DNA of 60,000 bases from NCBI RefSeq assembly GCF_026151205.1, contig NC_087074.1, positions 6,326,001 to 6,386,000 of the forward strand. Direction: 5' to 3'. The position numbers and the translations under genes are program-made. Positions within the stretch are counted from its first letter, which is position 1, and each line of letters starts with the position of its first letter. A model generated the notes under the pieces. The model was not told where the DNA came from, did not search any database, and worked only from the letters and a program-made list of their open reading frames with translations. The stretch comes from Bolinopsis microptera. Taxonomy: Eukaryota > Ctenophora > Tentaculata > Lobata > Bolinopsidae. Positions 10,178 through 35,225 of the stretch are shown piece after piece.

Positions 10178-10488
10178 AGCCGCCTTAAGTCAGTCAAGTC
10201 AGTCAGTAAGTCAAAAAACGACAAACACGTTTGTCCCATTTTCTCAAAATGGCATCGATGTGACTTACTGCCTTTTCTCAGGGAACGGCAGTATGCACAT
10301 GTCATCTTTCTAGCTGTTTGTTTGTGTACTGATCCTTATAGCGCTTATTTAAACGTTTGTTTACGCTAGTATAGTTGCTAAGTTGCTTGTATTTTTCCTG
10401 AGCAGTATAATTGCACTACACCCTGTTGCATTTTGAGTCGAGTTCATTGGTACATCACGCTCAACTCAGCAGATGATTTGGGATTGAT

Positions 10489-10581
10489 TTAACGGGTGAT
10501 ACTCGTAAAATATCTGTTCCATATATAGGACCGTCGACGAGTCCAACTCGGCGCGCGTCCTGGTAGGTTGTAAACCTACAA
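10489..10581. mobile_element. 93-bp hairpin-string insertion, family i copy 1
   Basis: Begins TTAACGGGTGATAC and ends AAACCTACAA, flanked by perfect 8-bp repeats GGATTGAT (10481-10488 and 10582-10589). It folds on paper as three successive hairpins: ACGGGT-GAT-ACTCGT; AGGAC...GTCCT enclosing CGAGT-CCA-ACTCG; GTAGGTT-GTA-AACCTAC. A second copy occurs at 32961-33058, also with an 8-bp duplication. No coding capacity and no poly(A) tail. Confidence 0.75.
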
Positions 10582-10648
10582 GGATTGATCGATCTTACGG
10601 TGAGTAACTCTGCTGTAGTTTTACCTCTGCTATTATAAACATATGGAA

Positions 10649-18668: not shown

Positions 18669-19827
18669 AATATAATAGGAACGTCTTGGACAAATAAGCA
18701 TTTAATTGATGAACAATTTTTTCAAGCCTGATCTAATGCAATATCACTGATCCAAGACCAACTCTCTTTTCTCAATTCTGAAAGTGGAAAGCTTTTGTCG
18801 CATGTCATCTTCTTCTTCTTCGTCACATCACACATGTCACTTTTGTCTTATGGCTCCCAAAGTTAAATTGCTTTTTTAATAATTAAAGAGGGTTAAGTTG
18901 CAGCACACTTTTTTCACCAATAAACATTGTTGCCAAAGTAGTATAGTCATAGATTCTTTCAGTGATCTGTCTCTCTAGTCCCAGCTGATCACATCGCCCA
19001 CCCATAAAAGTAATAATATATTATACATTCTTCTAGTTTTAAAAAGGAACGTAGGTTGTAGCGCGATGCACTACTAGACTGGGTCGCGCCGCGCATTTTC
19101 TCGCAACCACAACCGTATGCAGATCGGCGAGATGCGAAGGATTGACATTGTGAGTCAAGAACGTAGACGACATTTGTGCGCACGGCCGGCACGTATGTAT
19201 TTACGCAGGCAGGCAGGCATGACGGTCGCAAGCTACCATATACTAGCAGGAACCCGTCTAACCCTAAGTGGTGTCAAGACTCAAAAGATTTAATTAATTA
19301 TTACCTATTTTATTTTTCGTTTTTGACACCAAATTTTGGGCACTATAAATATAATTGTCATTTCTTGGCCAATTTGTTATTTTTTCATGCTGATTTGAAA
19401 ACCATTAAGACATTTCACCCAGTCAAAAAAATTTCAGTTTTATATATTTTACGGTTTTTGCGAAAAGTCGTGTTAAAGTTGATGCCGTGATGTCAGTAAA
19501 ATGGTACGGATATATATCGTCTCGCTGTAATTGTATATATAGTTAAATACAAAGGAAAAAAACTCGTAGTCGTACGCTAACCCTTGTCCAATTGACTCTT
19601 TTGTGTCTTCGGCACAGGAGTCAGGGATCGGGAAAAATAGTATATCCTTGTACATTGTACCTATGTACTTATAGTTATGACTATGTGTAGTAGTCAAACA
19701 TTACAGAGATTGGGAGGATATTAAGTTTTTTACATGCTTGGTAATACCTTTTTGTTCCTAAGGCTGCAGTGAAAACACAATCCATTGGCATTACAATTTG
19801 AATCGATCGAAAATGAACATTCATTCG
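18669..19827. other. No gene seen
   Basis: Repetitive and AT-rich. About 19055-19105 carries a GTTGTAGCGCGATGCACTA motif that recurs inverted at about 33115-33155, so a dispersed repeat is present. No supported exon. Confidence 0.4.
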
Positions 19828-21440: not shown

Positions 21441-21550
21441 TTGTCATACGTTGTATGACCCGCCGCGCACGAGTGCGCGGCTCCCCCTGTATCGTCAGGA
21501 CGATAAAGGGGCCATAGTGAAACGACCGTGGGGGTCGCAACGTGATACAA
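21441..21550 (-). mobile_element. 110-bp hairpin-string insertion, family ii copy 1
   Basis: Starts TTGTCATACGTTG and ends in the complement of TTGTATCACGTTG. Internal hairpins in order: GTCATAC-GTT-GTATGAC, CCGCGCAC-GA-GTGCGCGG, CCCCTGTATCGTC pairing with GACGATAAAGGGG, and CGACC...GGTCG. Flanked by GCAGTTTG on both sides (21433-21440, 21551-21558), although that sequence is also part of the surrounding repeat. An opposite-orientation copy is at 32341-32428. Confidence 0.75.
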
Positions 21551-31639: not shown

Positions 31640-31915
31640 ATAGGGTTAAAATACTCCCCTGACGAGATATTGCATATTGGTGAAAAACTGTCTCGATCAC
31701 GTGATATGACCGTATAAGGAAGTTAGTCTAATTTCTCGTTAGGGTTAGGGTTTCAGCAAATGCTTTTGTTAAGGATTGGGTTAGGGTTAGGGTTGGGATC
31801 AGATAAGAGGGTTAAGGTTTCAAATAGTCGTTCAGAACCAGCTAAAGAACGGGTTGAAAAAGTCACGTCACAGTTGAGTGTAGAGTGATTGATCATCATC
31901 CCCGCCCAGTTATAA
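31640..31915 (+). repeat. Direct repeat copy 1, with TTAGGG-like units
   Basis: Shares ATAGGGTTAAAAT, CTGTCTCGATCACGTGATAT, GACCGTATAAGGAAGTTAGT and later segments with 32577-33085. It contains GTTAGGGTTAGGGTT (31737-31752 and 31779-31794), resembling telomeric repeat. It lacks the insertions present in copy 2. Confidence 0.85.
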
Positions 31916-32340: not shown

Positions 32341-32428
32341 TTGTATCACGCGGTGACCCCCACTGTCGCTTCGACGATACAGGGGAGCCGCGCACTTCGT
32401 GCGCGGCGGGTCATACAACGTATGACAA
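32341..32428 (+). mobile_element. 88-bp hairpin-string insertion, family ii copy 2
   Basis: TTGTATCACG... to ...CGTATGACAA, flanked by a perfect 8-bp duplication ATCTAGCG (32333-32340, 32429-32436). Hairpins: GACCCCCACTGTC region, CGCGCAC-TTC-GTGCGCG, GTCATAC-AAC-GTATGAC. It is the reverse orientation of 21441-21550. Confidence 0.8.
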
Positions 32429-32684: not shown

Positions 32685-32813
32685 TTGCTCTAACCAGAGT
32701 CCTTTCGCTTGCAGTAGTGCGCGACCGCCGAAAGCGGCAAGTATATTGATATTCTACTTGTGAAACAAGCGCGATCACGCAGTACGCGTATATTATACAC
32801 ATGGCTATGTGAA
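32685..32813. mobile_element. 129-bp hairpin-string insertion, family iii
   Basis: TTGCTCTAACC... to ...GGCTATGTGAA. Flanked by GGGTTTCAG (32676-32684 and 32814-32822), read as an 8- or 9-bp target duplication; copy 1 of the direct repeat gives the empty site near 31747-31757. Hairpins: CTCT-AACC-AGAG, CCGC-CGAAA-GCGG, CTTGT-GAA-ACAAG, CACAT-GGCT-ATGTG. Single copy in this window. Confidence 0.75.
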
Positions 32814-32960
32814 GGGTTTCAGCATATGCTTTTGTTAGGGATTGAGTTATGTTTAGGGTTGGGATCAGATATGATTAGAGGGTTAAAGTTTCGAATAGTC
32901 GTTCAGGACAAGATAGAGAATGGGTTGAAAAAGTCACGTGACAGTCGAGTGTAGAGTGCA

Positions 32961-33058
32961 TTAACGGGTGATACTCGTAAAATATCTGTTCCATATACTA
33001 TACAGGACCGTCGACGAGTCCAACTCGGCGCGCGTCCTGGTAGGTTGTAAACCTACAA
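32961..33058. mobile_element. 98-bp hairpin-string insertion, family i copy 2
   Basis: TTAACGGG... to ...CTACAA, nearly identical to 10489-10581 with a 5-bp length difference in the AT-rich middle. Flanked by AGAGTGCA (32953-32960, 33059-33066). The empty site is seen in the direct repeat near 31878-31890. Confidence 0.85.
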
Positions 33059-33085
33059 AGAGTGCATGATTAATCATCATCCGAT

Positions 33086-33721: not shown

Positions 33722-35225
33722 CACATTGGAAAATACAATTCACTTTATATCTCCAATATTATTGGAAAATACAGTACACTTATCTCTAGTATTATTGGAA
33801 AATACAGTACACTTATCTCCAGTATTAATGGAAAATACAGTACACTTATCCCCAGTATTAATGGAAAGTACAGTACACTTATCTCCAGTATTATTGGGAA
33901 ATACAGTACACTTATCTCCAGTATTATTGGAAATACATGGTACACTTATCTCCAGTATTATTTGAAAATACAGTACATTTATCTCCAGTATTATTGGAAA
34001 ATACAGTACACTTATCCCCAGTATTATTGGAAAATACAGTACACTTATCTCTAGTATTATTGGGAAATATAGTACACTTATCTCCAGTAATATTGGAAAA
34101 TACAGTACACTTATCTCCAGTATTATTGGAAATACAGTACACTTATCTCCAGTATTATTGGAAAATACAGTACACTTATCTCTAGTATTATTGGAAAATA
34201 CAGTACATTTATCTTCAGTATTATTGGAAAATACAGTACACTTATCCCCAGTATTATTGGAAAATACAGTACACTTATCTCTAGTATTATTGGAAAATAC
34301 AGTTTACTTATCTCCAGTATTATTGGAAAATACAGTACACTTATCTCCAGTATTAATGGAAAATACAGTACACTTATCCCCAGTATTAATGAAAAATACA
34401 GTACACTTATCTCCAGTAATATTGGAAAATACAGTACACTTATCTCCAGTAATATTGGAAAATACAGTACACTTATCTCCAGTATTATTGGAAAATACAG
34501 TTCACTTATCTCCGGTATTATTGGAAAATACAGTACGCTAATCTCCAGTATTATTGGAAAATACAGTACACCTATCTCTAGTATTATTGGAAAATACAGT
34601 ACACTTATCTCTAGTATTATTGGAAAATACAGTACACTTATCTCCAGTATTATTGGAAAATACAGTACACTTATCTCCAGTATTATTGGAAATACAGTAC
34701 ACTTATCTCCAGTATTAATGGAAAATACAGTACACTTATCTCTAGTATTATTGGAAAATACAGTACATTTATCTCCAGTATTATTGGAAAATACAGTACA
34801 CTTATCCCCAGTATTATTGGAAAATACAGTACACTTATCTCTAGTATTATTGGAAAATACAGTACACTTATCTCCAGTATTATTGGAAAATACAGTACAC
34901 TTATCTCCAGTATTAATGGAAAATACAGTACACTTATCCCCAGTATTAATGAAAAATACAGTACACTTATCTCCAGTAATATTGGAAAATACAGTACACT
35001 TATCTCCAGTAATATTGGAAAATACAGTACACTTATCTCCAGTATTATTGGAAAATACAGTACACTTATCTCCAGTAATATTGGAAAATACAGTACACTT
35101 ATCTCCAGTATTATTGGAAAATACAGTACACTTATCTCCGGTATTATTGGAAAATACAGTACACCTATCTCCAGTATTATTGGGAAATACAGTTCACTAT
35201 ATCCAGTATTATTTGAAATTATAGC
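33722..35225. repeat. 33-bp minisatellite, about 45 copies
   Basis: The unit is GGAAAATACAGTACACTT followed by ATCTCCAGTATTATT. Because 33 is divisible by 3, long stop-free frames arise on both strands (11-residue repeat ENTVHLSPVLL on +). A few 32-bp units change the frame. The order of variant units in about 34158-34541 recurs at about 34718-35100, an offset of 17 units, so a block was duplicated. I do not regard the frames as genes. Confidence 0.93.

Follow-up and report, generated by a model that had tools for sequence, protein, structure and literature searches.

A short mobile DNA element of Bolinopsis microptera with folded ends and variable interiors

Two short insertions in the window and their relatives across the genome

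The window, by which we mean the whole 60,000-nucleotide stretch of Bolinopsis microptera DNA analysed here, contains two copies of a short element on the plus strand, copy 1 of 93 bp (10489..10581) and copy 2 of 98 bp (32961..33058). An earlier sequence-only reading had reported that the two have the same ends and that each is flanked by a perfect 8-bp direct repeat. Both observations were upheld: the first 17 and last 19 bases are identical, and the target-site duplications are GGATTGAT for copy 1 (10481..10488 and 10582..10589) and AGAGTGCA for copy 2 (32953..32960 and 33059..33066). Allowing up to three mismatches, each end pattern matched the window exactly twice, against expectations of 0.11 and 0.02. 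The three hairpins with 3-base loops that had been described were likewise recovered when the plus strands were folded as single-stranded DNA. In copy 2, all on the plus strand, the terminal TTA is followed by a 6-3-6 hairpin with the loop GAT (32964..32978), a long central hairpin (33003..33039) lies within the ~60-bp right arm common to the long elements described below, and a 7-3-7 hairpin (33040..33056) precedes the terminal AA. Folding z-scores were -4.6 and -5.2 for the two plus strands, and none of 200 shuffles equalled either. The left and right arms are separated by a filler, CTATA, in copy 2 (32998..33002, plus strand) and meet at about 10526/10527 with no filler in copy 1. The unoccupied site that had been placed in the repeat at 31640-31915 is present as a related empty site (31830..31901, plus strand): it lies in the diverged second copy of copy 2's host repeat, where the joined flanks and one duplication align apart from scattered mismatches and a gap of four bases at TGCA.

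Across the 264.7 Mb of genome searched, the 26-mer of the 5′ end had 2,194 matches and the 32-mer of the 3′ end 1,691 (at most one mismatch, genome-wide), whereas the backward-pattern controls had none; the element is a very small mobile DNA family of about 2,000 copies in 264.7 Mb. Three sets of copies were read. One comprised 39 loci taken in order of their similarity to copy 2 and is biased. Another, the sample of 40, consisted of the leading 40 entries in a list of 100 5′ ends; it is unselected for interior, but every member has the exact 26-bp 5′ end. The last, also biased, combined 13 5′ ends and 14 3′ ends that lacked an exactly matching partner with other chosen places. Copies genome-wide keep their ends and short duplications of near-constant length, as expected of a mobile family with fixed outer boundaries. 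The duplication itself, previously given as exactly 8 bp, is in fact 8 or 9 bp long. Among 93 distinct short copies, exact direct repeats were of 8 bp in 50, 9 bp in 16 and 4 bp in one, and 26 had none; exact repeats of either of the two main lengths thus flank 66 of the 93. In the sample of 40, repeats of 8 or 9 bp with at most one mismatch flanked 30 copies. When flanks were re-paired by shuffling, 105 of 18,600 pairings matched, approximately the yield of the unmoved pairs within the shuffle.

In an enlarged set of 56 eight-base and 17 nine-base duplications, a preference was apparent three bases outside the duplication, with a pyrimidine at -3 in 44 of 56 eight-base and 15 of 17 nine-base targets and a purine at +3 in 46 of 56 and 16 of 17, respectively. 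After symmetrisation, the target chi-squared value (3 df) was 60.9 for distance 3 and 27.0 for distance 4. Integrase-type strand transfer produces such a preference, symmetric and lying outside a stagger of constant length. Because the preference is symmetric and lies outside a near-constant stagger, we infer staggered strand-transfer insertion, and the weak target palindrome outside the cut is that of a staggered, transposase-like event. The earlier deduction of a DNA transposase from the duplications agrees with this reading.

The statements that the ends are not inverted repeats and that the short copies have no A-tail also stand. Compared by eye, the left end TTAACGGGTGATAC and the reverse complement of the right end TTGTAGGTTTACAA agree at TT and at scattered bases only, yet the two ends fold into nearly equal hairpins. 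An Rfam gathering search of the window returned no match, the exact 25-base 5′ and 3′ ends were absent from the viral collection searched, and the exact 25-base 5′ end was absent from the prokaryote collection searched. Three places sharing the first 18 bases were considered as further families and set aside, two running into other sequence and one having a duplication beside the left hairpin. The top-ranking literature matches described no family with these features, and for the literal end sequences the matches listed concerned a 10-mer only.

Long relatives and variable interiors

Three loci of the sample of 40 (L046, L050 and L077) continue into a long element, which bears out the suggestion that a larger element might share the termini. 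Five complete long elements carry both ends of the short one: element A (G000:C1:2524532-2533036; 8,505 bp; duplication TGTTATGT), element B (C1:9269584-9279073; 9,490 bp; duplication AGTTTGAG), L089 (3,951 bp; 9-bp repeat with one mismatch), and L090 (7,101 bp) and L091 (7,855 bp), each with an exact 8-bp repeat. None of the five contains a stop-free frame of 100 codons, the longest frames being 77-85 codons, and tandem repeats with periods of ~323, 410-450 and 917 bp occur inside the long elements. The long left junction was found at 22 places genome-wide, truncated copies included. The first 40 and last 60 bp of four complete long elements differed from A at one position in 400, whereas the adjoining segments of the same elements differed by 1-9%. 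Because the left ~40 and right ~60 bp are nearly invariant and compose the short element, we take these arms to be the functional ends. What had been described as a minimal element thus consists of the two ends of a long non-coding element joined together; two such long elements (8,505 and 9,490 bp) were read fully.

A candidate second, coding long element at L085-L088 proved to be a single insertion that breaks off at 395 bp and lies within a duplicated block; it has the same left flank on four contigs, ~0.07-0.55 Mb from the contig end, and its copies show 2-3 base differences in the first 40. The 1,524-codon open reading frame of L088 lies inside the inverted repeats of another unit (L088:2625-9164) and matched nothing in Pfam at E 0.1 or in PDB at E 1; an 892-codon relative is present in L087. 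At L137, the right arm adjoins an inverted piece of the long element's left region, an internal inversion.

The short body is not constant; hypervariable sequence lies between its left and right arms. Genome-wide, with at most one mismatch, the 93-bp interior, the commonest seen, occurs at 416 places and the 99-bp interior at 22. The sample of 40 yielded 33 short copies, 10 of which have no indel, with 30 distinct sequences, after six copies without the short right end and L047, which bears a nested insertion, had been left out of the count. These 33 carry 29 indels and 27 substitutions, and 21 of the 29 indels start at positions 28-41, the arm junction. By contrast, 44 indels and 187 substitutions separate A and B in the six of eight alignments used, two having been dropped (Fisher p 2e-6 for the contrast with the short copies). 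Among 107 copies there were 70 junction strings, 56 of them seen once, point changes included, and the interior of L048 occurs a single time in the genome. In the 84 of 107 junctions used for analysis of the arm limits (23 were dropped), the left arm never extends beyond position 40 and the right arm mostly stays within ~60 bases, passing beyond CCAGGACC once, with fillers ranging from -3 (microhomology) to +15 bases.

Duplicated regions provided a view of when interiors change. In a duplicated block that holds three elements (96.8% identity over 1,317 bp), one element is altered at the right hairpin in a single copy, while its other oddities are common to both; one interior change thus arose after insertion. 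A second duplicate pair (99.5% over 3,033 bp) has an unchanged interior, and L106 and L107 share the same complex interior across 146 identical bases. That duplicates have such scars in common speaks against errors of assembly. At L092, a single left end is accompanied by two right ends, and a 9-bp repeat encloses them all. Scarred copies had a mean of 0.67 substitutions (n = 24, L047 included) against 1.3 for the others (n = 10; p 0.26), and in this small sample they were not shown to be either younger or older by substitutions. Most of the copies sampled have a repair-like scar of their own in the middle, for which we infer an origin in excision and repair. L128 (815 bp), considered as captured DNA, is instead a short copy with a nested insertion at ~137-757 of the reverse complement (ends GACAACTAGG / CCTAGTTGTC), the duplication AGTCATGA of the host copy being intact; L129 (684 bp), considered likewise, may also be a nested insertion in a short copy.

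Sister families and the geometry of the ends

A scan for exact 8- or 9-bp repeats around TT...AA in 314,575 pooled bases (the window and the loci), blind to folding, recovered the main family, F1, and five others, F2-F6, each with at least two different duplications. Copies of these sisters also lie in the window. F3 is represented by an 88-bp TT...AA copy (32341..32428, plus strand; 8-bp duplication ATCTAGCG), whose right end forms the full 7-3-7 stem and whose left end pairs at five of seven positions, and by a 110-bp copy (21441..21550, minus strand; 8-bp duplication GCAGTTTG). F4 contributes a 103-bp copy (19056..19158, plus strand) with a 9-bp duplication containing one mismatch, and F2 a 129-bp TT...AA copy (32685..32813, plus strand; 9-bp duplication GGGTTTCAG) inserted in the host repeat that also contains copy 2. 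A second F2 copy was found at L088:9777-9849, the F2 repeats being of 9 and 8 bp. Among rows with both ends, exact 8- or 9-bp repeats flanked 2 of 5 for F2, 3 of 5 for F3, 2 of 7 for F4 (four with one mismatch; one of the places enters the count twice), 2 of 6 for F5 and 1 of 3 for F6; exact repeats of 6, 7 or 10 bp were found in none of these rows. In a control with other dinucleotides, clusters also appeared for AA, AT, CC, CG, GC, GG, TA and TC, which by eye are tandem or offset artefacts, and the F1 filter of this control also hid F4-F6.

The left end of F6 resembles that of F1; for the other sister ends, no likeness was seen beyond the first bases. What is shared is a dyad of 7+3+7 centred 11 bases in, present at both ends of three sister families, though in most cases a pair or two is broken, and complete at one end of a fourth. 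Paired bases out of seven, for left and right ends, number 4-5 and 7 in F3, 6-7 and 5-6 in F4, 6 and 5-6 in F5, and 6 and 7 in F6; F2, with 2 and 1-5, has 5-base stems with 4-base loops rather than the 7-3-7 dyad. A full TTn-6-3-6 or TT-7-3-7 stem was formed by 5 of 10 non-F1 ends compared to 60 of 11,842 TT 22-mers of the window (p 8e-10), and stems of at least five pairs, a looser test that counts F2 through its 5-base stems with 4-base loops, by 7 of 10 against a background of 4.8% (p 7e-8); with one author-chosen representative per end and few families, these p-values are indicative. In a structure-only scan, the window yielded only the two F1 copies, and the loci yielded four hits, in F4, F5 and F6. 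Its controls gave two hits for AG, one, three and six for dyads shifted to offsets 6, 8 and 10, and one window hit for a loop of 6; the printed hits at offsets 8 and 10 came from the minisatellite near window 34-35 kb, and at a looser threshold of five pairs, five of eight window hits fell outside any family. This minisatellite, with units TACAGTACA and AGTATTATTGGAA (window 33969-35187), gives false matches in repeat scans.

The proposal that the ends are recognised by structure fared unevenly, for sister ends share the geometry without the sequence, but the stem covariation that might have been anticipated within the family is absent: in F1, changed pairs were kept three times and broken four times in the left stem, and kept three times and broken 18 times in the right. 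Because the stems do not covary within the family, the case for shape lies in the comparison between families and between ends, where the sister families lend it some support short of demonstration. A DDE transposase as a rule finds two copies of one end sequence. We tentatively suggest, as a rather improbable extension, a eukaryotic class of elements whose ends would be read by shape, namely TT plus a dyad centred 11 bases in with 7-base arms and a 3-base loop, the sequences being unrelated at the two ends and mostly between families; one structure-reading transposase would make staggered cuts of 8-9 bp, and the middle would be rewritten in most cycles. We weight this class lower on account of the partial dyads in several sister copies. 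If it is real, a single enzyme would have to pair ends that agree in shape and differ in sequence, perhaps across several families, and transposon ends would then be defined in a novel manner. As a sober alternative, we propose that each dyad is the binding site of a protein dimer, with drifted sequence.

Origin of the short copies and relation to known systems

Our preferred reading, to which we assign a probability of roughly 0.7, is that the short element is a non-autonomous cut-and-paste DNA element made of the fused ends of the long non-coding element and scarred by abortive gap repair. The left ~40 and right ~60 bp would have been fused by internal deletion and then amplified. An enzyme encoded elsewhere, most likely a transposase of the DDE type, would join the TT...AA ends to the target with a stagger of 8 or 9 bp, producing the duplication. 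Copies would often leave their site once more, and filling of the resulting gap from its two sides would remain incomplete; abortive repair of this kind, with joining by microhomology or from a template, would scar the middle and spare the ends and duplications. With less confidence, each end may be recognised through its dyad or hairpin, a step suggested by the fact that the family's two ends are alike in geometry and unlike in sequence. A published study (PMC2895639) reportedly deals with polymerase-theta end joining in Drosophila. Incomplete gap repair is the published model for derivatives of Ac/Ds and PIF/Harbinger (PMC2213677, in the portion available), and it is the mechanism to which we ascribe the interiors. 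If so, some 2,000 elements that closely resemble one another yet for the most part differ in their interiors would constitute a rich natural record of post-excision repair. Against random gap repair, the arm limits are sharper than predicted.

It is possible, though we favour it less, that the element belongs to a named superfamily (Merlin, non-TIR MULE, P, hAT or KDZ) with its coding partner elsewhere, given that Merlin (58 matches) and MULE (88 matches) are present in the genome. However, all three Merlin groups with a readable boundary start with GG, whereas the short-element ends start with TT, and in the 28 loci read (16 Merlin and 12 MULE) no transposase lies between these ends. Of these loci, only L122 contains a whole short copy and L147 a right-end match; to the extent that the boundary of the transposase unit is readable, neither lies inside it. 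L154 has a weak left-end-like match. None of the 12 MULE loci, whose boundaries were not readable, was tied to the short-element ends. The three GG-starting Merlin groups (L112-L117, L144-L150) include several members with open frames of 295-337 codons, and their copies are 95-99% alike.

Short copies might alternatively be immobile remnants of long insertions that lost their interior when they were cut internally at a set place and rejoined imprecisely, each junction being private. Diverse junctions with intact duplications and sharp arm limits agree with this, as do junctions that hold the right-arm CCAGG (once TACCAGG), present in the long element and missing from the 93-bp form, and L097, outside the 84, which shares three bases (TAC) beyond the left limit. 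We nevertheless judge it unlikely, in view of 22 long left ends against 2,194 ends and of 416 places with the 93-bp interior despite its 1-base microhomology, a 3-base junction being found in 4 of 107. Recurrent junctions could mimic a master form. Because the commonest junction has less microhomology than the rare 3-base junction, we favour the spread of the 93-bp form as such.

That hairpins break or slip slowly after insertion, making interior diversity a matter of age unrelated to transposition, would fit the element in the duplicated block that changed at its hairpin post-duplication. This too seems improbable, as scarred copies were not older by substitutions (in a small sample), the 21 of 29 events at the arm junction left few in the strongest hairpin, and the duplicate pair of 99.5% identity kept the same interior. 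A SINE or retroposon copied through RNA, its hairpins read by reverse transcriptase, is very unlikely: strong plus-strand folding and G-T pairing in the F1 and F5 left stems are countered by duplications of 8-9 bp rather than variable length, a two-sided target preference, no A-rich or repeated tail, and 8-9-kb relatives with identical ends and duplications.

Among known systems, hAT elements have 8-bp duplications and CA-type inverted repeats; the present ends are unlike hAT, as had been noted, being TT...AA with 9-bp duplications in 16 of 66. IS200/IS605 and Helitrons have hairpins at or near their ends and insert without target-site duplication; the short element is alike in its end hairpins and differs in making a duplication. 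Ds and KP-type P elements are deletion derivatives of DNA transposons. Like such derivatives and MITEs, the short element is short, non-coding and present in many copies, with fixed termini shared with a longer element, near-constant duplications and internal deletions; unlike MITEs, it lacks terminal inverted repeats, has many interiors rather than a few clonal forms, and its long form is itself non-coding. With Merlin it shares duplications of 8 or 9 bp, and one Merlin family has highly imperfect inverted repeats (PMC8101967, in the portion available); its ends are TT and not GG, and no Merlin transposase was linked to it at the 16 loci read. Non-TIR MULEs of the VANDAL type similarly have no inverted repeats, and MULE duplications, of 8-11 bp, encompass those seen here; VANDAL elements are coding, and dyad ends are unmentioned in the available portion of that account (PMC6446971). 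Because inverted repeats are absent, the GG ends of Merlin are not matched and no transposase is tied to these ends, we place the element in no named superfamily and regard it as a variant of the non-autonomous DNA transposon, a MITE in the wide sense.
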